Made by a program: the position numbers and the translations under genes
The notes under the pieces: generated by a model
Databases searched by the model: none
What the model saw: the letters and a program-made list of their open reading frames with translations, nothing else
Told to the model about the DNA's origin: nothing
Assembly: GCA_020056225.1 (NCBI GenBank)
Contig: JAGVIE010000023.1
Span: 62,001-126,000, forward strand
Origin: Bacteroidota bacterium
Lineage (GTDB): Bacteria > Bacteroidota > Ignavibacteria > UBA10030 > SZUA-254
Length of the DNA: 64,000 bases
Direction of reading: 5' to 3'
Shown: piece by piece, positions 1,490-63,500 of the stretch
Layout of the letters: each line of letters opens with the position of its first letter
Position numbering within the stretch: position 1 is the stretch's first letter

Positions 1490-1723
1490 CAGACCTCACC
1501 TATAATCGTTCGACTGAGCTTCCGACGAAGTCCTCTCCTAAAAGGAGAGGATGAAATATCTATGCACTCGTATTTGCGCAGGCAATAACGGGGCTGTCTA
1601 AAAAGAATCAATTACTGTCAGCCTGAGCTTGTCGAAGGCTCAATGCCGCTCAATTTCACATTTCGACAAGCTCAATGTGACACACTCTCAGACTTATTAG
1701 ACATCCCCTACGGGTGAGGTCTG
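1490..1723. repeat. Nested inverted-repeat (MITE-like) intergenic element
   Basis: The 520-base gap 1257-1777 has no convincing gene but contains a nested palindromic structure. The outer 11-bp arms CAGACCTCACC (1490-1500) and GGTGAGGTCTG (1713-1723) are exact reverse complements. Inside lie GGGGCTGTCTA (1590-1600) against TAGACATCCCC (1698-1708), with one mismatch, and the 12-bp exact arms GAGCTTGTCGAA (1625-1636) and TTCGACAAGCTC (1662-1673). A short hairpin CCTCTCCTaaaaGGAGAGG lies near 1531-1550. This looks like a non-autonomous repeat or a composite of dispersed small repeats. No transposase is present. Confidence 0.6.
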
Positions 1724-1777
1724 TTCATCATTGATCGCTCTGAACATTTTTCAAACTGATACACCCCATAAATTTGC

Positions 1778-2713
1778 TTACACTCCAAAATCTATGAACG
1801 GCACCGGCGGAAAAGTGAGTATAAAGGTGATGAAAGCAAACCATCCCAAGAATTTTCTTGTTGGAGTCAGTACCGTATCATCGTTTATCTCAGGATGTTT
1901 TAACTTAATCAGGAAGTATAAAATTGCCGCCCATAGCAGCCATCCTATAGATCCAAGATACAGCTTGAATCCGAAGAACGGAATGAAGCTAAGCAATCCC
2001 ATGGCAATCAGCAGACCGAAAAAGATTTTTGCTATGATAGTTTGCCGCTTCCCGCCGATGAGCGCATACATAACATGACCCCCGTCCAATTGACCGACAG
2101 GCATTAAGTTGAGCGCTGTAACAAACAGACCGAACCAGCCGACACAAAGATATGGATAGTGGTAGATTTCATTCATTGGCGGAACGAAGCCGTTCCAGGT
2201 GAAAAGCTTCGTTATGCCGTAGAAGAAAATTGACTGACCGAATGAAAATCCGTTTGTTGGAATTTCGCCTGACGGTAAATATTCCGGATGGATTGAATAA
2301 ATAAATGATTTATCCGGGAGCGTGAGTAATCCATACACTAAAATAATAATAGTAACGATGAACCCTGCAATTGGTCCGGTTATGCCGATATCGAATAAAG
2401 ATTTCTTGGAAGAAAAACTTGAGCGGATGCGAATGACCGCGCCAAGTGTGCCGAACGGATTCACAAGAAACGGCGGCGCAGGGATGTAATACGGAAGTGT
2501 TGTGTTTAACTTATGGTACTTTGCAGCGAAGTAATGTCCAAACTCATGAGCCGATAACATCGCCAATATACTGATTGAATAGGGAAGACCATACCAGAAG
2601 TTAGCAAGCTCCAGCGGATCTTTGTTCAACCACTGCACTCCGGCGAGTGTTGTAGTGAAGAACGTGAGAACAAATAAACTAATGTTGAGTGTGTACGACC
2701 AGAATTTTTTCAA
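1778..2713 (-). CDS. Site-2-protease-like M50 membrane metalloprotease
   Basis: 311 residues, polytopic membrane protein. The zinc-binding motif HEFGH is at residues 56-60 and the second motif NLMPVGQLDGGH at about 202-213 supplies the third ligand, as in the S2P/M50 (EGY1/FtsEX-independent) family. There are hydrophobic segments around residues 10-25, 43-55, 108-130, 190-206 and several near the C-terminus. No PDZ domain is seen, so this is the compact form of the family. It should cleave substrates within the membrane, but the substrate is unknown. It stands alone: the gap after the previous gene holds a repeat element, and a 160-base gap with an inverted repeat lies upstream. Confidence 0.88.
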   Translation of the reverse strand: MKKFWSYTLNISLFVLTFFTTTLAGVQWLNKDPLELANFWYGLPYSISILAMLSAHEFGHYFAAKYHKLNTTLPYYIPAPPFLVNPFGTLGAVIRIRSSFSSKKSLFDIGITGPIAGFIVTIIILVYGLLTLPDKSFIYSIHPEYLPSGEIPTNGFSFGQSIFFYGITKLFTWNGFVPPMNEIYHYPYLCVGWFGLFVTALNLMPVGQLDGGHVMYALIGGKRQTIIAKIFFGLLIAMGLLSFIPFFGFKLYLGSIGWLLWAAILYFLIKLKHPEINDDTVLTPTRKFLGWFAFITFILTFPPVPFIDFGV

Positions 2714-2801
2714 AGATACTGTTTCCGAAATTATATAAAAGATAGATTAAGATACTGAAATATTATTTGATTTAAAATGATGTTTTGTAATTATTGAGGA
2801 A

Positions 2802-2848
2802 GTGCGACTCACTTCCAATGCTGACTCTACGCTGAAAGTGAGTCGCAC
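2802..2848. repeat. Perfect 13-bp inverted repeat
   Basis: GTGCGACTCACTT (2802-2814) and AAGTGAGTCGCAC (2836-2848) are exact reverse complements around a 21-base spacer. It lies between the M50 protease and the HicB-like gene, is AT-flanked, and has no T-run on either side that would make it an obvious terminator. It is most likely a small dispersed repeat. Confidence 0.6.
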
Positions 2849-2856
2849 ATTACTTC

Positions 2857-2873
2857 TCCCGCCTTCGGCGGGA
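2857..2873. repeat. Short GC-rich hairpin repeat (TCCCGCC/GGCGGGA)
   Basis: TCCCGCC-TTC-GGCGGGA is a perfect 7-bp stem with a 3-base loop, immediately after the stop of the HicB-like gene. A sister hairpin TCCCGC-TTCA-GCGGGA lies on the other side of the same gene (3099-3114). The pair therefore brackets the small gene; they read as members of a dispersed repeat family, and this copy could also end transcription. Confidence 0.5.
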
Positions 2874-2879
2874 TCAGAA

Positions 2880-3056
2880 TTACATGTTGGCATTTCCCGA
2901 TTGAGCTTCGAGCAGTTTCCTGCAAACGTCTCTGGCAATCTCAAGTGCTTCAGTTACCGTTCTACCCTGGGCAACAAGTCCTTGTACATCATCCGAAGTT
3001 GCGAGGTACAAATCTTCAGGAAGTTTTTCTATGTGGATTTTGATAATGCGTTCCAT
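2880..3056 (-). CDS. HicB/DUF1902-like small antitoxin-type protein
   Basis: 58 residues, starting MERIIKIHIEKLPEDLYLAT with the ATG at 3056-3054 and TAA at 2882-2880. The pattern of a short beta-strand, LYLATSDDVQGLVAQG, then TVTEALEIARDVCRKLLEA matches the partial RNase-H-like fold of HicB antitoxins (DUF1902 subtype, no added DNA-binding domain). No HicA-like toxin gene is visible next to it: downstream there are only short repeats and upstream about 450 bases of non-coding DNA. It is an orphan of a toxin-antitoxin family, either a relic or an antitoxin acting alone. Confidence 0.6.
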   Translation of the reverse strand: MERIIKIHIEKLPEDLYLATSDDVQGLVAQGRTVTEALEIARDVCRKLLEAQSGNANM

Positions 3057-3505
3057 GATTGATCCATTTTGTTCTATTATATAAAGTTGTCATGTTGATC
3101 CCGCTTCAGCGGGAGAAACATCTTCTTTTTCTTGCGTTTGAGACCCTTCGCTGCGCTCAGGGTGACAAAGGAAGCAATTTTTCAAAAGTCTCTATTGATA
3201 AATTTCCGAACTAATGTAAGAGAGATAAAAAGATAAACAAACAAACTTATATACGATTGCCAGTGATCTAATTTGTTTCAAACGCTAATAAAGATAATGA
3301 AATTACACGATATTTAAAATGATAAAAAGGTGGGATATTTTACGTTGATTCTCAATAAGAAATTGCTATATTTACTGAGCGATAAATTTGTAATAAAGAG
3401 GGTAGTGATATACCCTAAGAGATTAGTGCGGATAATTGGAATAGTAAATATGAGAGAGCTGTCGCAGAAAAAGTATTATATTATGACCAGTTTCATTTTA
3501 TTTCG
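3057..3505. other. Non-coding interval with dispersed short repeats
   Basis: No credible gene in these 449 bases. The right half (3180-3505) is very AT-rich. The left half has the hairpin TCCCGC-TTCA-GCGGGA at 3099-3114, then CCCTTCGCTGCGCTCAGGG at about 3144-3162, both of the style found dispersed in intergenic DNA of related genomes. The promoter of the following three-gene module must lie in the AT-rich part. A TATAAT occurs at 3520-3525 but no convincing -35 is paired with it. Confidence 0.5.
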
Positions 3506-4645
3506 ATGTATAATTCAGTTATAATAAGCGAGATCAATAATGTGAGCCCCGCGCCTAATGGGCAGGCAAAGCCGCTTGCTCAAAGTAGCCTAATTGAACT
3601 GTCTGAGTTTCCCACGACACGATATCAAGGCAGCAAGAGAAAACTCGTATACTGGATTTGGGAAGGCCTACGAGGGATTAAGTTTGACACCGCTCTTGAT
3701 GCTTTTGGAGGTACCGCCTCTGTGAGCTATCTGTTTAAGAGAATGGGAAAAGCAGTCACTTACAATGACAAGCTCCACTTTAATTACCTAGTAGGCAAGG
3801 CCATCATTGAGAATGACGAGGTGATTTTAACTGACGAAGATATTGATTGGCTAGTCCGGTCCCACGACAATGGATGCTACACGGACTTCATATCTGACCA
3901 TTTCCAAGGGATGTATTACATGGACCATGAGAACCGGTGGCTCGACATGGTCAATAGTAACATTCTCCAGATGGTGGAAACAGACAAAAAGGTGTTGCAA
4001 TACAAACAATCGTTGGCATATTATGCTTTGTTCCAAGCTTGTTTAGTTAAGCGTCCTTTTAATTTGTTTCATCGATCAAATCTGGGTTTGAGAACAAGCA
4101 ATGTCAAGCGAACCTTCGGAAACAAGGTAGCATGGGAAAAGCCTTTCGAAATCCTGTTCCGTCGATTTGTTCAGGAAGCAAACAGGCTGGTGATAAGCAC
4201 AGACGTGAGATGTTCCGCGCTTAACAGATCGGCTTTTGACATCGATCCTGATGGGTACGACGCGGTGTATCTTGATCCACCATATCTTAGGTCGACAGGG
4301 AGTAATGAAACGTCTGATTATTTCAGGTGCTACCACTTTCTGGAAGGCATGAGTCAATACTCCGATTGGGCAAGTCTACTGTGCGCGAGGAAACAAAACA
4401 CGGGATCGGATTTTACGCTTGGTAGTGCACATGGAATCTTTGAAGAATTGCTCGCGCGATTCCGCCATAGTGTACTCATTATCTCATATAAGCGAGGTGG
4501 GATACCTTCTATTGAATTTATAGTTACATGCCTAAAGAGGCTTGGCAAGAAAGTGAATACAAAGAGCGTGCACTATTCGTACGCTTTAAACCATCAGAAC
4601 GGTGATGCCAAAAAAAATCGAGAGGTTCTCATAATTGGTCAATAG
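3506..4645 (+). CDS. D12-class (Dam-like) N6-adenine DNA methyltransferase
   Basis: 379 residues. It has the features of the D12/alpha-group adenine methyltransferases: motif X TTRYQGSKRKL at 37-47, the S-adenosylmethionine motif DAFGGTASVS at 65-74, and the catalytic DPPY at 257-260 within YDAVYLDPPYLR. Between them lies the expected target-recognition region. It should methylate adenine in a specific DNA sequence. It is the first gene of a close three-gene set: the GHKL ATPase follows after 17 bases. No restriction endonuclease is fused to it. The N-terminal 30 residues are not part of the family core, and a GTG at codon 13 is an alternative start. Likely role: self-marking in a defence module (inference). 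Confidence 0.85.
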   Translation: MYNSVIISEINNVSPAPNGQAKPLAQSSLIELSEFPTTRYQGSKRKLVYWIWEGLRGIKFDTALDAFGGTASVSYLFKRMGKAVTYNDKLHFNYLVGKAIIENDEVILTDEDIDWLVRSHDNGCYTDFISDHFQGMYYMDHENRWLDMVNSNILQMVETDKKVLQYKQSLAYYALFQACLVKRPFNLFHRSNLGLRTSNVKRTFGNKVAWEKPFEILFRRFVQEANRLVISTDVRCSALNRSAFDIDPDGYDAVYLDPPYLRSTGSNETSDYFRCYHFLEGMSQYSDWASLLCARKQNTGSDFTLGSAHGIFEELLARFRHSVLIISYKRGGIPSIEFIVTCLKRLGKKVNTKSVHYSYALNHQNGDAKKNREVLIIGQ

Positions 4646-4662
4646 TAATTTACTAACTAAGC

Positions 4663-6225
4663 ATGCCTGATTTCGTCAAACAACTAACTGTCGACAAGCG
4701 GATCGTACCGCTACTGAGCAAGTCTGCCTATCAGAGGAGCTTTGCATACGCCGTCCGTGAAATGGTAAGCAACGCCTATGATGCAGACGCAACAACAGTC
4801 CACATAACGATCGATCTAAAGGATGATGAGATTGTAATCGAAGACAATGGTAACGGAATGACAGTTGAAGAGTTTGACCACTACCTGAGAATTGCTGGTC
4901 AGAAGAGAGGTAGAAGAGAGAGCCCGAAGTTTGGCAGAAAGCGGATCGGGCAGTTTGGAGTGGGATTCCTCGCTGTTTTCCCCTTCTGCGAAACGCTTGA
5001 AATCACATCAACGGCTGAGAATTCGGATCAGTTGTTTACAGCAAAAGTGCCAGCATCAAAATTTTTCCGGGAAACGAGCAAGACAGAAGAAGTTGGTGAG
5101 TTAGATATCCCGGGATATATCTCACAAGACAAGAATAAGCGGAGCGACCATTACACACGATTGAGACTGCGAGGGCTGACGGATAACGCCAAGAGGTACT
5201 TTGACAGTAAACCTACCAAAGCTGATCGCAATAGCGTTCTTTCCTGGAAAGGGCTTGAGAAACTCAAGTGGGAATTACAGGAAGATCTCCCAATATCGTT
5301 CCCAACTAACTCGAAGCTTGGTAAACTACTTCCTTATTCTGAACCGTATGCTATGGAAGTTTACCTTCAAGGAGAAAAGATTTATCGAAACGACTGGGAG
5401 GGTGACATACTCGACCATGGAGAAATAACAGCTAGTGGTATCAGGTTCAGATACGCGATCATAACGGCTTGGAAGCCAGTCAAACCCCATCAAATGAGGG
5501 CACTCAAGATTCGAGTGAATAATGTTGGGGTGGGTCCCCGAGATAACTTTGACGTGGAAAGAACCCGGCGTTACAGTCGCTTTCACTGGTTAACAGGAGA
5601 AATACAGGTGCTTGGTGGATTGGATGATGCACTAACATTAAGTCGAGATTCATTTGTCGTAAGCTCTGAATACGAAGAATTCCGTGAGAAGATAGTGTCA
5701 CTCCTTAGGAAGCAAGCGGATTACATTGAGTTGGTGGATGTGGCGGCGAAGGACATGACTAAGCAAGTACGTGGTGGCAAACAGACACGGGTGGCTTCCA
5801 AACGAGACATTGTAGAAAAGAACATAAAGAAGTTGGTCGAGAAGGGATTTACGGTTAAGACGGCGGAGGTTGGTACTTTACTTCTTAGCGAGCCAGTGAA
5901 GGTAGATAAGGGCAAGAAAGAGGTCATTGTTATTGAAGGACACCCGGGGTTGGAGGATTCGATTACTGTCTCAGGTCGGAAGAAAAAGGTAGTCTATACA
6001 TCGTGGGATCCAAAGGGAGACGTAAGGTTTTCAGCCTGTAGAATAAATGATGTGGGGCAGATTGAAGTAAATACGCAGTACCCTCTGTTCAAATCAAAGA
6101 GATATGGAGAAGTATTCTTGAAAGTACACATACTAGCACTATTAGCCGCAGATGAATGCTTATCAGCAAAGCAAATGCATGAATTCCTCGTTCAGAATTT
6201 GCTGAAGGAATTTCAGGAGTTTTAA
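4663..6225 (+). CDS. GHKL (Hsp90/MutL/MORC-like) ATPase
   Basis: 520 residues. The N-terminal ATP-binding Bergerat fold is clear: N-box AVREMVSNAYDADA with Glu33 and Asn37, G1 box EDNGNGM at 60-66, and the G2/lid GRKRIGQFGVGFLAVF at 91-106. The arrangement is closer to MORC and other S5-linked GHKL proteins than to histidine kinases, because no HisKA or receiver part is present. The remaining 350 residues contain a transducer-like region and an unassigned C-terminal domain. GHKL ATPases of this kind dimerise on ATP binding and act as DNA clamps in MutL and MORC proteins; members linked to restriction-modification gene neighbourhoods were described by Iyer, Abhiman and Aravind. Here it sits between a DNA methyltransferase and an AAA ATPase (34-base gap). 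Confidence 0.82.
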   Translation: MPDFVKQLTVDKRIVPLLSKSAYQRSFAYAVREMVSNAYDADATTVHITIDLKDDEIVIEDNGNGMTVEEFDHYLRIAGQKRGRRESPKFGRKRIGQFGVGFLAVFPFCETLEITSTAENSDQLFTAKVPASKFFRETSKTEEVGELDIPGYISQDKNKRSDHYTRLRLRGLTDNAKRYFDSKPTKADRNSVLSWKGLEKLKWELQEDLPISFPTNSKLGKLLPYSEPYAMEVYLQGEKIYRNDWEGDILDHGEITASGIRFRYAIITAWKPVKPHQMRALKIRVNNVGVGPRDNFDVERTRRYSRFHWLTGEIQVLGGLDDALTLSRDSFVVSSEYEEFREKIVSLLRKQADYIELVDVAAKDMTKQVRGGKQTRVASKRDIVEKNIKKLVEKGFTVKTAEVGTLLLSEPVKVDKGKKEVIVIEGHPGLEDSITVSGRKKKVVYTSWDPKGDVRFSACRINDVGQIEVNTQYPLFKSKRYGEVFLKVHILALLAADECLSAKQMHEFLVQNLLKEFQEF

Positions 6226-6259
6226 CATCAACGATTGAATAAGATAAAGGAGATCAAGG

Positions 6260-7381
6260 ATGTACATTTCGCATTTTGAGATTAATAACTATCGAAGCCT
6301 TAAGGGAGTGAAAATCAATGGACTGCTCTCGGTATGCATTTTTCATGGCTTAAACAATTCAGGTAAATCAAATATCCTATCAGCTCTTGAGATGATCTTC
6401 AAGAGAAAGCTCGAAGAGGGAACACCGAATAAATGGCGTCCTGTGAGGTTCTGGCGAGGACGTATTGAAAACTTTACCGACAACTTCTTTAAAAACGATA
6501 GAAAAGATATTACGTTTTCTGTTACCGTTTCTTTTGAACATGCGGAGGTCGAGCCCTTCATGGAAATCCTGAAAAAGCTGAAGACTCATTTGGAGAAGCC
6601 GTCATATAAGAAAGACTTAACATTGGTTGGGCGTATAAAATACATAGATGAGCACATCGCAAATGCAGAACTTGAATGCGTTACACTAAACACGGATTAC
6701 AAGATAATGACATCGTCCGTTGGTAAAGGATTAGAATTATTCCCCGGTCTGAAGGATGTGTCAAATGAAAAAAAACTCCAGACCTTTGAAAGGATAATGG
6801 ATTTGATGAACGATTCTTTCGTCGTAATACCATCTAACAGATTTCTCACGACAGAGGCGGAATCAGGCAAAAAAGACTTGCCTATGACACCAAATACTTT
6901 TAAGGCATGGCTGTTCAATCTTTCGCTCGACCGATCTAAGTATTATATGTTTCAACAAATAAAGGACATTTTCAATGGAGAACCTTTCAAATTTGGTGAG
7001 TTGAGCTTCACACGGAATGATAACGAAATTGAAATCATGGTTGATAAGGATGGTGTTCGGCTTCCAATAAATAGGATGGGCTCAGGATTACAACAAATAC
7101 TCTTTTTAGTTTCGAATCTGGTATTATTGAAAGGCAAAATGGTCGGTATTGAGGAACTTGAAATCAATCTTTCTCCTACTGCGCAAATGCAGATATTTGA
7201 AAAAATCAAATCATACTTAAAAAAGGATAACAAACTAATAAGCCAAGTGATTATCACAAGTCACAGTGATTACTTCGGTGGCCGAGGAGATGTTAGATGC
7301 TACGAAACAAGCCATGATGGAGAGAAAACAATCGTGTCTAATTGGACTAATGCTATGCGCCGTGCATTTTTCAAACACTAA
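6260..7381 (+). CDS. OLD-like AAA/ABC-type ATPase without TOPRIM
   Basis: 373 residues. It begins MYISHFEINNYRSLKG, the usual start of RecF/SMC/OLD-type ATPases, with Walker A GLNNSGKSN at 30-38, a Walker B-like MVGIEELE at 294-301 and the switch His in ITSHSD at about 332-337. The protein ends soon after, so it lacks the TOPRIM nuclease domain of true OLD proteins and any visible nuclease. A strong Shine-Dalgarno (AAAGGAG) lies 9 bases before the ATG. It is third in the methyltransferase-GHKL-ATPase set. In comparable systems such ATPases sense or remodel DNA and activate a partner; here the partner is presumably the GHKL protein (inference). Confidence 0.82.
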   Translation: MYISHFEINNYRSLKGVKINGLLSVCIFHGLNNSGKSNILSALEMIFKRKLEEGTPNKWRPVRFWRGRIENFTDNFFKNDRKDITFSVTVSFEHAEVEPFMEILKKLKTHLEKPSYKKDLTLVGRIKYIDEHIANAELECVTLNTDYKIMTSSVGKGLELFPGLKDVSNEKKLQTFERIMDLMNDSFVVIPSNRFLTTEAESGKKDLPMTPNTFKAWLFNLSLDRSKYYMFQQIKDIFNGEPFKFGELSFTRNDNEIEIMVDKDGVRLPINRMGSGLQQILFLVSNLVLLKGKMVGIEELEINLSPTAQMQIFEKIKSYLKKDNKLISQVIITSHSDYFGGRGDVRCYETSHDGEKTIVSNWTNAMRRAFFKH

Positions 7382-7475
7382 CATAGGTTATCCTACTCAG
7401 TCGTTATCGAATAATTTGTGTACATCGCGAGTGAACTTCATTCCATGAAACTTTAACAGGCTCACCCCCCAACAC

Positions 7476-7541
7476 AAATCTAAAGTCGATGCCCTCTGGG
7501 ACAAATTCTGGTCTGGAGGTATTGCAGGTGTAATATCTCAG
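7476..7541 (+). pseudogene. Probable relic of a type I restriction methylase (hsdM) N-terminus
   Basis: In the 354-base gap after the AAA ATPase one frame reads KSKVDALWDKFWSGGIAG, closely resembling the N-terminal segment of many HsdM proteins (pattern KVxxLWDxFWSGGIxNPL). There is no start codon: an in-frame TGA lies just upstream at 7446-7448. After VISQ the similarity stops and the frame runs into a REP-like repeat. It looks like a short remnant of a former type I restriction locus. Recognition is from memory of the family, without alignment. Confidence 0.45.
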
Positions 7542-7735: not shown

Positions 7736-9007
7736 ATGCGATCTCCAAATTTCTCATCCACAATCATGCATCTTCCAATAGAAGCGTTGAAATCAGACTC
7801 CTTGGATCTGTGGCACGGTGTTTCTGCCGTTTCTCCGACACTAAATAGCTGCTACACGATTGATGACCAAGTTCTGAAAGAGGCAGAGGTTGAACGGCTG
7901 ATGCGCGATGTGGATGCTTCCATAGACGAGTTAAAAGCATCCGGACGTGCTGTGCGGAGACGAGCCACCGGAATACGAAGTCGGATTCAGCGTTCCATCG
8001 TCCAGCTCCTCCACAGCTTCGACTGCGTTATCGACGTCGACATGGAGCAATCTTTTTCAAGAGTTACCGATGAATTCATCGAACAGGCGTACGAGTTCGA
8101 TCCACAAATCAGCGAGGAAGCCATCTATCAGGCATCGAGGAACCTCCTGATCATGAACACGTTTCAGATGCACCTTGGGAAGGAGATTACACTTGCGCCA
8201 TCGGTCTTTGCATACAGCATGCTTTACCCGTACACCGATAACTACTTAGATGCTGTTGAGATTTCCGCACATGCGAAGCACGAACGGAATGAATGGCTGC
8301 TGCTTCGTCTATCCGGGATTGTGGCAACACCGCGGAACCGCCAAGAGCGAACCATCGATCGGCTTGCTGAAATGATCGAAGCCGAGTACGATCGGCATGT
8401 GTATCCTAACGTGTACGAGAGTCTTCTCGCGATTCATAAAGCACAGACGAGAAGCGTGGCACAGCAGTGCGGCGATCTTTCAGTTGATGAGCTGCTCGAT
8501 ATAAGTGTAGAAAAAGGAGGGACATCCGTTCTCGCGGATGGATACCTTGTGGCAGGGGAGCTATCGGCGGCTGACGCAGAGTTCTTCTTTCGGTTCGGAG
8601 TCTTGCTGCAGCTTATCGACGATCTGCAAGATCTTCAGGAAGATAGCTCTCTTCAACATCGAACGCTCGCGAACTGTGCAGTAGAAAAAGGAAAAATGGA
8701 AAATTTCACAGATAGGCTGCTGTCGTATGCCGATGTAGTTTTAAAATCCGCCCTTTCTCACCAACAGAAATTACGAACGTTGATCGAACGCAGTTGCCGG
8801 CTGTTGATCTTGGAGGCAATCGCATCCAATCACAACTACTACAGCGACCAGTACCTTCTAACTATGGAGCGGTGTGCACCGGTACGGTTCGAATATCTAA
8901 GAAGCGTGCAGCGACGATTTAAGGAAAGATACGATACTCATCAAGTCGAGGAGTTACGAAAGTATCGACGTTTTGGGATGCGGGCGAAAAAAGGAATTTT
9001 TGTATGA
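7736..9007 (+). CDS. Class I isoprenoid-synthase-fold enzyme (prenyl or terpene synthase-like)
   Basis: 423 residues, almost entirely helical. The C-terminal half contains VLLQLIDDLQDLQED, with D295-D296-x-x-D299 matching the Asp-rich metal-binding motif of class I prenyltransferases and terpene synthases. Before it, KGGTSVLADGYLVAGELS resembles the KGT region of trans-prenyltransferases. A candidate first acidic motif is TDNYLD at 167-172. The family as a whole is divergent, and the substrate (short-chain diphosphate, cyclisation or head-to-head condensation) cannot be told. No neighbouring gene belongs to an isoprenoid pathway. Codons look somewhat more GC-rich than in the surrounding genes, suggesting transfer. 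There is no good Shine-Dalgarno; Met11 is an alternative start. Confidence 0.6.
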   Translation: MRSPNFSSTIMHLPIEALKSDSLDLWHGVSAVSPTLNSCYTIDDQVLKEAEVERLMRDVDASIDELKASGRAVRRRATGIRSRIQRSIVQLLHSFDCVIDVDMEQSFSRVTDEFIEQAYEFDPQISEEAIYQASRNLLIMNTFQMHLGKEITLAPSVFAYSMLYPYTDNYLDAVEISAHAKHERNEWLLLRLSGIVATPRNRQERTIDRLAEMIEAEYDRHVYPNVYESLLAIHKAQTRSVAQQCGDLSVDELLDISVEKGGTSVLADGYLVAGELSAADAEFFFRFGVLLQLIDDLQDLQEDSSLQHRTLANCAVEKGKMENFTDRLLSYADVVLKSALSHQQKLRTLIERSCRLLILEAIASNHNYYSDQYLLTMERCAPVRFEYLRSVQRRFKERYDTHQVEELRKYRRFGMRAKKGIFV

Positions 9008-9030
9008 GGTAATTGGAGGGGTTTGAGCAC

Positions 9031-9069
9031 TACTTTTCCCCACGAGGAGGTGAAAATACAAAAGGGGTT
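9031..9069. repeat. Direct repeat, left copy, flanking DUF559 gene
   Basis: 39 bases beginning TACTTTTCCCC and ending AATACAAAAGGGGTT. It matches 9532-9570 at 36 of 39 positions by eye. The core is an inverted repeat (TTTTCCCC around CGAGGAGG), imperfect in this copy. It lies 11 bases before the start of the DUF559 gene. Confidence 0.75.
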
Positions 9070-9080
9070 GAAACGATTAT

Positions 9081-9476
9081 ATGACTGAAATATTCAATAA
9101 AAAAGAAATGAAGGAGAGACGACAGTCTCTTCGCAATCAAGCGACAGATACAGAAATACTTTTATGGGAACGCATCCGTAAAAAACAAGTGCTTGGTGTT
9201 CGCTTTCGTAGGCAATTCAGTATCGGTCACTATATCGTTGATTTCTATTCTCCTAAGATTAAACTTGCTATAGAGATAGATGGTAAAAGCCATGATCGAG
9301 AATCAAAACGAGAATATGATTCAACTCGCGAGGAAGAAATCAAGCAGCTTGGCATCAACATGCTCAGGTTTAGAAACCACGAAGTCCTCGAAGATATGGA
9401 TGGAGTCGTACGGAAAATTGAGACTGCGGTAAAAACATTAACCGTTAGCAAGGACGAACCGGCAAAAGTTCTTTGA
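9081..9476 (+). CDS. DUF559 (Vsr/PD-(D/E)XK-like) endonuclease-domain protein
   Basis: 131 residues. It has the DUF559 signature: ATDTEILLWERIRKKQVLGVRFRRQ (family pattern TxxExxLWxxLR...GxxFRRQ) at 21-45, followed by YIVDFYSP with Asp54 and AIEIDGKSH with Glu65, Asp67 and His71, the likely metal-binding residues of a very-short-patch-repair-like nuclease core. The family is widespread, and its members are often solitary with unknown targets. The gene sits alone between two copies of a 39-bp direct repeat, and a strong hairpin follows its stop. A repeat-associated mobile or selfish unit is inferred. Confidence 0.85.
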   Translation: MTEIFNKKEMKERRQSLRNQATDTEILLWERIRKKQVLGVRFRRQFSIGHYIVDFYSPKIKLAIEIDGKSHDRESKREYDSTREEEIKQLGINMLRFRNHEVLEDMDGVVRKIETAVKTLTVSKDEPAKVL

Positions 9477-9506: not shown

Positions 9507-9531
9507 GGTTTCACAATGCTATGTGCGCCAA

Positions 9532-9570
9532 TACTTTTCCCCTCGAGGAGGGGAAAATACAAAAGGGGTC
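9532..9570. repeat. Direct repeat, right copy, flanking DUF559 gene
   Basis: 39 bases matching 9031-9069 at 36 of 39 positions. In this copy the inverted core is perfect: TTTTCCCCTC-GAG-GAGGGGAAAA (10-bp arms). It ends 24 bases before the pepA stop codon. Confidence 0.75.
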
Positions 9571-60530: not shown

Positions 60531-63500
60531 ATGGTAAAAACTTTAAAACAAGCTGAAGAAGTTCTCAGAGTTATTTCCGAGAATGTTAACGATCTGATAG
60601 TTGTAACAGATTTAAAAGGCAGTCGAATCTCATCGAATTCCGCTTATGATAAGCTGATCGGTAACCCGGAAACTTTAACCGGAACAGATTATACGACAGA
60701 AGTTCATTCTGATGATTTGACGTTAGTCAAATCCGGTATTCGATCTGCGGCGGATGGCAATTCACCTGTGAACTTTACTCATCGCTTATCTCTTTCCGGT
60801 GGCAACGTCCGTATTCTTGAATCAAAAATAATTCGCCTAATCGATGATAAAGATAGGCCGATGAACCTTATTATTTTCTCGTGTGATATTACCGAAGCGA
60901 CAGAATCCCAGAGAGAACTCAGGCTTCTTGCGCACGCAATCGGGTGCACCAAGGACGCATTTCTTTTAACGGATATGAATAACAAACTCATCTTCGTGAA
61001 TCCGGCGACACGGGAAATGTACGGTTTTTCAGAAAAAGAGTTGTTGGGCAAAGATATCAGCGTACTTCGTTCCAAAAATAATCCCGCGGAAATACTGAAG
61101 CAGATGGAAAAAGCAACGCTTGAGCGCGGTTGGAATGGTGAGTTGCTCAATAGCCGCAAGGATGGCTCGGAATTTCCAATCGAATTGTGGACTTCAACAG
61201 TGCATGATGAGTTGAATAAGCCGGTGGCTTTAGTTGGTATCGCGCGGGATATAACCAATCGCAAGCAATCCGAGGAACGATACAGAAGTACTGCCGCTCA
61301 ATTACAGCTCACGCTCGATAATTTGAATATAGTCTCTTTCGAGTTAGACAGCGAAGGCAATTTCCTTCTTTCACGTGGGAAAGGACTTGAGAAATTAGGT
61401 TTGAAGCCTGATCAAATTGTCGGACTTTCTATCTATGAAGTATATAAGAACAATCCGGAAATATTAAAGATGGTTGAAAAAGCTTATGCCGGAGAGTGGG
61501 GCGAAGCTGACATTGAGGTAGCGGGAGTCATCTGGAGTACAAATTATATTCCTATTAAAAATAGTGAAGGAAAAGTTGAACATATTTTCGGCACTGCGAT
61601 AGATATTACCGACCGCAAACATGCTGAAGAAGCATTGAGCTACGAGACAGATCTCTGGCATACATTGATGGACAGCATTCCCGATACGATTTATTTCAAA
61701 GACATCAGTTCGCGGTTCACGCGTATCAACAAAGCGCAGTGTAATATTCTCGGGATTCAGAATTCTGAGGAAGCAGTTGGTAAATCCGACGCTGACTATT
61801 TCACGAAGGAACATGCCGCCAGCGCGCTTAATGACGAGAAAAAAGTAATTACAACCGGAGAGCCGCTGCTCGGCAAGATCGAAAAAGTAACTACAATCGA
61901 AGGCAGAACCCGATGGTTTTCGACAACAAAAGTTCCTATGAGAAATAAGCAGGGGAAAATTGTAGGCATTATCGGTAGTTCGCGCGATATCACGGAACTT
62001 AAACAGGCAGAGGAAATTGAATCTGCACTATACAGGATCGCTGAAGAAACGAGTTCAGCCGCTGATTTTCAGAAATTATTCAGCGCGATACATACCATAA
62101 TCAGCGGTTTAATGTATGCAAGGAATTTTTACATCGCGCTCTATGACAAAGAGAATGATTTATTGAGCTTTCCATACTTCGTCGATGAAGTCGATGTCCC
62201 TTTAGAGCCGGGTCCACCCGGAAAAGGATTAACTGCATACGTCCTTCGTACTGGAAAATCGCTTCTCTGTGATTTGAAAGTATCGGACGAATTGGAGAAA
62301 CGCGGCGAGGCAGTACTTGTCGGCGTCCCGAGTCCGATATGGCTAGGAGTCCCGCTTGTTGTCGAAGGTAAGACAATCGGAGCTATGGTTGTTCAACACT
62401 ATACCGATCCGACTGCGTATTCTGAGCGTGACAAACAAATTCTTGAGTTCGTTTCGACTCAGGTTGCTAAAGCTATTGAGCGTAAGCGTTCGGCAGATGC
62501 TCTTATTAAAAGTGAAGATCGTTATCGGGCATTCATCGAGCAAAGCTCTGAAGGGATATGGCGTTTTGAAACAGATGTACCGATTTCATTACTTCTGCCT
62601 GAAGATGAACAGATTCGGTTATTTTTCAAACATTATTATCTCGCTGAATGCAACAATGCAATGGCTCAGATGTACGGATACAATAATGCGGGTGAGATTA
62701 TCGGATTAAAACTTAGCGATATGCTTGTATCCGAAGATCCCCATAATTATGAAATTTTTAAAAACTTTATACGCTCCGGTTATCGAATGACACAAGCTGA
62801 AACGCGAGAGCGAGATCGTTATGGAAATTCTAAAATCTTCTTGAATAATTTTGTCGGTATTATTAAGGAAGATTCTCTATACGGGTGGTGGGGTACTCAG
62901 CTTGATGTTACAGAACGTCGCCAGGCTGAAGAACTGATAAAGCAGTCGGAAGAGAAATACAGAACATTATTCGAGGATTCACAAGATTGCATCATCCTGA
63001 CTACTCCGGAAGGGAATCTTATCGACATCAATCCGGCAGGAGTTGATATGTTCGGTTTTTCTTCTAAAGAAGAATTATTGAAGGTTGGCAACGCGCGGGA
63101 GTTGTACTTTAATCCTGTAGACAGAGAGTCATTCACTGATCACCTGGCTCAATATACATTCGTGAAGGATCTTGAGACTGCGATTAAACGTAAGCATGGT
63201 GAAAAGCGGGTAGTACTGGAAAATTCGTCCGCTATCAGGAATGCTGAAGGTAGTATTCTCGGATACAGATCTTTTCTCAGAGATATTACAGAAAGAAAAA
63301 ATCTCGAAGATCAACTTAGACAGGCACAAAAAATGGAGAGCATAGGCACCTTAGCCGGCGGCATTGCTCATGAATTTAATAATCTCCTTGGGATTATATT
63401 AGGATACGCATCGATACTTACTTCGGCAAAAAATGATGAGCAAAGACTTTCGCAAGGCGTAGAAACGATTAAGAAGGCTGTCCAGCGCGGCGCAGATCTC

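Follow-up and report, generated by a model that had tools for sequence, protein, structure and literature searches.

What is a DNA methyltransferase marking DNA for when the two genes that follow it encode ATPases and no recognizable DNA-cutting enzyme? The question is raised by a locus in contig JAGVIE010000023.1 of a Bacteroidota bacterium, of which positions 62,001 to 126,000 were analyzed; this stretch of 64,000 nucleotides is referred to here as the window, and the coordinates of the locus count from its start. A preliminary description of the window had singled out three genes on one strand, separated by 17 bases (methyltransferase/GHKL) and 34 bases (GHKL/ATPase), as a candidate defense module, and the open reading frame (ORF) coordinates agree with this layout. 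The three-gene unit, termed the cassette below, looks like an undescribed means of discriminating self from viral DNA and of halting the viral DNA. Its features, together with one feature of its context, are as follows.

3506 to 4645, forward strand: D12-class N6-adenine DNA methyltransferase, 379 amino acids (ORF list, Pfam, PADLOC, homolog alignment)
4663 to 6225, forward strand: GHKL (MutL/Hsp90/paraMORC-like) ATPase, 520 amino acids (ORF list, Pfam, NCBIfam, homologs, structure model)
4663 to 5046, forward strand: GHKL ATP-binding domain, amino acids 1 to 128 (Pfam, homolog alignment)
5047 to 5658, forward strand: middle (S5-like) domain of the GHKL protein, amino acids 129 to 332 (homolog alignment, profile search)
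5659 to 6222, forward strand: C-terminal domain of the GHKL protein, amino acids 333 to 520 (model, alignment, profile search)
6260 to 7381, forward strand: OLD-type ABC ATPase without TOPRIM, 373 amino acids (ORF list, Pfam, alignment, fold matches)
7461 to 7541, forward strand: N-terminal relic of hsdM, a type I restriction-modification (R-M) methylase, outside the cassette (sequence match)

The cassette is more than a chance arrangement because it recurs in other genomes. Homologs were sought with the GHKL protein, in the phylum first and then in the class, and a set alike over the full length was picked from dozens of proteins that share the ATP-binding domain alone. The order methyltransferase-GHKL-ATPase was found in five genomes (the window and four more) from two classes of Bacteroidota, and a sixth genome carries the GHKL and ATPase genes at a contig edge. 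Had the three genes not been conserved together elsewhere, the preliminary description would by its own criterion have been refuted; they are conserved together. Of the six members found, several come from metagenome-assembled genomes (MAGs); the cassette is rare and mostly known from such assemblies. In genome G260 (locus L002), the methyltransferase, GHKL, and ATPase genes occupy positions 346 to 1488, 1492 to 3066, and 3074 to 4318, respectively. In the Candidatus Kryptoniota MAG G431 (JAHECO010000022.1), the methyltransferase and GHKL genes overlap by 8 bases and a 14-base gap precedes the ATPase gene, and the corresponding gaps are 6 and 11 bases in the Ignavibacteria MAG G537 (JADHVP010000024.1) and 4 and 12 bases in G1082. 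The sixth member, the Flavobacteriaceae MAG G689 (JAKITV010000033.1), belongs to the same class as G1082; its contig starts within the GHKL gene, whose stop codon is directly followed by the start codon of the ATPase gene.

For every full-length GHKL homolog found, the next gene downstream is the ATPase gene and, wherever upstream sequence exists, the gene immediately before it is that of the methyltransferase, such that the methyltransferase comes first in 5/5 cassettes with known upstream sequence, at distances of −8 to 17 bases. In the class search, the full-length GHKL protein was present in 4/391 genomes, and the closest methyltransferases were encoded in those same four. A scan of the genome collection with two short peptide patterns yielded at least three loci, namely, two already found and the Flavobacteriaceae MAG, and this count is a lower bound. 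No full-length GHKL relative was found in the phage and plasmid collections, and the ATPase had no plasmid match. Viral contigs scanned with methylase, ATPase, and GHKL C-terminal queries contained no relative, and the full GHKL query returned other GHKL families only.

The catalytic motifs, reported as intact in the preliminary description, are indeed present in all three proteins of the window and are conserved in the homologs. The methyltransferase (MethyltransfD12, PF02086; 2.4e-15) carries DPPY at amino acids 257 to 260 and is 50 to 61% identical to its counterparts in the other cassettes. Its nearest PADLOC models are those of type II methylases (MTase_II models, up to 7.6e-47), and its plasmid-borne relatives are parts of type II R-M systems whose restriction enzymes are of the DpnII or AlwI family. 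Related methyltransferases were also observed in other company. In G004 (L067, 6596 to 10783), one is followed by a 906-amino-acid protein that combines a PHP domain at its N terminus with an SMC-like ATPase and then by a 349-amino-acid protein of unknown type. In G602 (L126, 7274 to 12178) and two Rhizobium plasmids (L057 and L058), a D12 methyltransferase heads a four- to five-gene set that continues with one or two proteins of unknown type, a protein like GHMP/beta-RFAP synthase, and a Ham1-type nucleoside triphosphate pyrophosphatase. This last set occurs in two phyla and is possibly a separate, undescribed modification or defense operon.

The GHKL protein (HATPase_c_3; 1.4e-21) contains an N box (E33..N37..D40..D42), a G1 box (DNGNGM), and a G2 box (GQFGVGFL), and its homologs are 32 to 49% identical to it. 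The S5-like middle domain is marked by an invariant R279-x-x-K282-x-R284 and N287-V-G-x-G-x-R, and profile searches show a weak similarity between it and the corresponding region of other GHKL proteins linked to methylases. The structure model, whose confidence is low (mean pLDDT, 63.6), matches the fold of Hsp90/HtpG/TRAP1 and predicts a C-terminal domain laid out as a long helix, a beta-rich part, and further helices; among all loci examined, the profile of this domain matched cassette members only. Other sets of a GHKL protein and a methylase were also encountered. G909 (L127, 3863 to 9168) encodes an N6_N4 methylase, a 549-amino-acid GHKL protein whose middle domain matches that of the cassette at 8e-10, a 300-amino-acid protein without a Pfam match, and a 592-amino-acid protein with a weak DndB match. 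Two viral contigs (L032, 4932 to 9038, and L037, 3617 to 7765) encode, in identical order, a Dcm-type methylase, a 655-amino-acid GHKL protein, and a 382-amino-acid protein, a set that by resemblance perhaps corresponds to the HEF_HK/Response_reg_2 set of PMC8011034. In Escherichia phage PhiR44_1 (L031, 4001 to 7049), a gene deposited as paraMORC3 adjoins a Dcm gene between the portal and replication genes.

The third protein (AAA_15; 4.8e-29) possesses a Walker A motif (GLNNSGKSN), an ABC signature (GSGLQQ), a Walker B motif (IEELEINLSP), and an H-loop (TSHS) and is 29 to 43% identical to its homologs. The Walker B variant IEELExNLSP is common to all cassette members save for one I-to-L change, and the ATPase subfamily bearing it was found only in this cassette. 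Its fold neighbors are Rad50, SMC, PtuA, and retron ATPases, and its best PDB profile match is an OLD-family endonuclease (3e-12). As the preliminary description had noted, TOPRIM is absent: the window protein ends about 37 amino acids beyond the H-loop, and no DxD is conserved. HxH, acid-x-K, and TOPRIM nuclease motifs were sought in both ATPases, and none is conserved. Likewise, no restriction endonuclease is fused or adjacent to the cassette, the nearest nuclease-like gene (DUF559) lying 1.7 kb away.

The three genes do not seem to share one history. The GHKL and ATPase trees have a common split of the window, G431, and G1082 from G260, G537, and G689 (support, 100/100 and 96/99), and both reject a grouping of the window with G260. 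Precisely these two are sisters in the tree of the methyltransferase (95/95), which rejects the group of the window, G431, and G1082 (approximately unbiased test, P = 0.019). The congruence of the first two trees and the conflict with the third suggest that the two ATPases descend together and that the methyltransferase is exchanged among cassettes. Thus, the ATPases, which the preliminary description had regarded as a pair, seem by phylogeny to travel as one that is separable from the methyltransferase, which seems to be swapped between cassettes.

We tentatively favor, at somewhat less than an even chance, a self-contained, methylation-gated defense by a sensor/effector pair of ATPases that is nuclease free or recruits a nuclease. 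The reading draws on the recurrence of the closely spaced gene order in differing settings, the apparent joint descent of the ATPases, the type II R-M kin of the methyltransferase, the lack of conserved nuclease motifs, and the precedent of BREX. In the mechanism we infer, the methyltransferase would mark adenines within a short motif of the host DNA, the GHKL protein would act as an ATP-gated dimeric clamp of the MutL/Hsp90/paraMORC build, and the OLD-type ATPase would form a dimer resembling the heads of Rad50/SMC. Together, in a physical complex, the two would engage unmarked incoming DNA as sensor and effector and stop it. Because none of the three proteins contains a recognizable nuclease, the stop would most likely be brought about without cutting, by loading or clamping that blocks replication or transcription of the unmarked DNA, a BREX-like working that involves no BREX member; alternatively, a nuclease encoded elsewhere may be called in.

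Several points weigh against the favored reading. The GHKL N terminus is most like that of the HgiDII/BbrUII restriction enzymes, which do cut. On the question of cutting, the sequence evidence argues against a known nuclease and the family background of GHKL restriction proteins in favor of one. Given the low confidence of the structure model, the C-terminal domain of the GHKL protein may be a diverged nuclease fold. Guilt by association is moderate, since a type I R-M locus is right beside the cassette in one carrier only, and the tree tests were picked after the trees had been seen.

A doubtful but credible alternative is ordinary restriction-modification, with the GHKL protein as the restriction enzyme, its C-terminal domain as a nuclease too diverged to recognize (as in HgiDII/BbrUII or paraMORC3/Shedu), and the ABC ATPase as a regulator. 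The GHKL N terminus (amino acids 28 to 178) matches NF050001 (BbrUII/HgiDII) at 3.7e-24 as well as PADLOC type II restriction models, the relatives of the methyltransferase belong to type II R-M systems, and the combination of GHKL with PD-(D/E)xK has precedents in paraMORC3 and VcSduA (PMC2292703, PMC12137116). However, the NF050001 match scores 85 bits against a curated cut-off of 550 and ends at about amino acid 180 of a model of 659 positions, with nothing past amino acid 178 of the 520-amino-acid window protein. Amino acids 333 to 510 contain a single invariant acidic residue, D415 (the extreme C terminus apart), and no conserved acid-x-K or histidine was found in the alignment of this domain, for which there is no convincing Pfam match, no TIR domain (the mark of paraMORC4) by Pfam, and no PDB match. 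A further reading, minimal nuclease-free exclusion, is about as doubtful yet credible: an adenine methylase related to the DpnII/AlwI type would mark self, and the MutL/Hsp90-type clamp and the Rad50/SMC-like OLD ATPase would load topologically onto unmarked DNA and silence or stall it, as a bacterial counterpart of methylation-driven MORC/SMC silencing.

Under a logic of the PARIS/AbiL type, the ATPase would sense a phage trigger and release or activate the GHKL protein as a toxic effector in an abortive response, and the methyltransferase would merely regulate or mark. The AAA_15/AriA, AbiLi, PDC-M38A, and mad3 models match the ATPase in all six members, and PtuA and retron ATPases are among its fold matches. 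The AriA model, however, equals generic AAA_15 in length and match and is thus not specific to AriA, and the label AriA was rejected for this protein. No known toxin domain is present, and a search for AriB (DUF4435) in five carrier genomes (all but G689) found none while its positive control was detected; a split PARIS system was therefore rejected for these five, and the abortive account is improbable.

The nearest cellular relatives of the ATPases are MutL, Hsp90, RecF, and Rad50, and in some bacteria MutL acts together with a choice of strand guided by methylation, which would suit a unit for DNA maintenance or repair, specific to the lineage, of MutL-like and RecF/Rad50-like ATPases with a methylase for strand discrimination. 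The patchy presence (4/391 genomes of the class), the differing locations, and the exchange of the methyltransferase instead indicate horizontal behavior rather than housekeeping, and a nondefense role is very unlikely. There is similarly little chance that the methyltransferase is a passenger beside a complete GHKL-ATPase system, for although its tree disagrees with those of its partners and related methyltransferases pair with other effectors, variety that would be expected of a marker with swappable effectors, it is kept first in every cassette with known upstream sequence.

Recurrence near known defense genes, proposed as a further test of the module, is borne out in part. In G1082, a type I hsdR lies 0.6 kb and an hsdS 6 kb downstream; in G431, a transposase gene adjoins the cassette and an hsdM start is 5.5 kb away; the G537 copy has an IS200-like transposase at a distance of 2 kb, and the G260 copy has a HipA-like gene at 3.7 kb. 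The neighbors differ at every copy, which suggests the behavior of mobile defense cassettes. In the window, the hsdM relic begins 80 bases past the ATPase stop, stays in frame for about 27 codons, and is 62% identical to HsdM-type methylases over 24 residues, as had been claimed. The DUF559 gene (9081 to 9476) follows 1.7 kb from the cassette with another gene in between. Farther out, the cassette is flanked by housekeeping genes (M50 protease, leucyl aminopeptidase, oxoacid oxidoreductase), and the term "defense island" used for this region is therefore too strong. The cassette is not distinguishable by its composition, and in an empty-site comparison with seven relatives, none of the window's downstream genes was within about 7 kb of the M50 gene. 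The DUF559 gene, which is absent beside the other copies, and the intervening 423-amino-acid gene were rejected as parts of the cassette. The latter (7736 to 9007) has no Pfam, NCBIfam, or PADLOC match and contains DDLQD, which by eye recalls a prenyl synthase; a 41-base direct repeat, 93% identical (9028 to 9068 and 9529 to 9569), flanks the DUF559 gene.

If the cassette is a defense system, two ATP-driven DNA machines, one of the MutL/MORC type and one of the Rad50/OLD type, would be coupled to a methylation mark within three genes. It would then be a tractable system in which to ask how BREX and other methylation-gated defenses halt DNA with no obvious cutting and why ATPases of the MORC type adjoin methylases, and the exchangeable methylase would allow the swapping of markers on a fixed pair of effectors to be tested.

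All of the components belong to known superfamilies. As a set, they correspond to nothing named in PADLOC-DB 2023, in NCBIfam 2026, or in the literature searched, as the preliminary description had anticipated, with a mention in an ABC-ATPase survey (10.1093/nar/gkaa726) being possible. The closest known systems (paraMORC neighborhoods, HgiDII/BbrUII, PARIS/Gabija, and BREX) each fail a defining feature. The paraMORC/MORC GHKL proteins are neighbors of restriction systems (Iyer, Abhiman, and Aravind 2008, PMC2292703), and the proposed kinship to them is supported: the general paraMORC build, a GHKL plus S5 domain linked to a DNA methylase, is that of the cassette, and the neighborhoods are similarly mobile and patchy. 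Unlike them, the cassette has an OLD-type ABC ATPase in place of a superfamily II helicase or endonuclease gene. Its C-terminal domain lacks the E-D-ExK of paraMORC3, the TIR of paraMORC4, and the HxH of paraMORC5, the GHKL protein does not bear the defining mark of paraMORC2 (per Iyer et al., PMC2292703), and the MORC S5 motif GhXhhpXXRhl is absent from all six members. BbrUII/HgiDII has the closest GHKL N terminus, whereas the cassette adds an ABC ATPase gene and a D12 adenine methylase and falls below the full-length cut-off. In VcSduA and other paraMORC3-type Shedu proteins (PMC12137116), a GHKL ATPase domain likewise precedes further domains of an antiviral protein, but no PD-(D/E)xK/DUF4263 domain was found in the cassette, and three genes stand against one. 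Type II R-M systems share the methyltransferase, whereas beyond the GHKL N terminus no endonuclease domain was found in either ATPase with Pfam, PADLOC, or NCBIfam. PARIS (AriA/AriB), Gabija, AbiL, and the retron OLD/PtuA systems share the OLD-type ABC ATPase, but the cassette has no TOPRIM, DUF4435 gene, helicase, or reverse transcriptase and is set apart by its Walker B variant. MADS is approached by the ATPase, which is mad3-like (3.9e-18 in the best-matching member), and by the methylase, which matches mad2 weakly (6.3e-5), whereas none of the mad models was matched by the GHKL protein and the other mad genes were not seen beside the cassette, a genome-wide search not having been made. In BREX, a methylation-dependent self/nonself defense, neither marking nor exclusion occurs without the methylase, which must itself bind the site and which marks one strand only (PMC11842806). 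Although the three genes match no PglZ, BrxC/PglY, BrxL, or PglX family, the methylase of the cassette would likewise mark self while other ATPases act on unmarked DNA, and on this inferred mode of action BREX, although no homolog, offers the closest working analogy.

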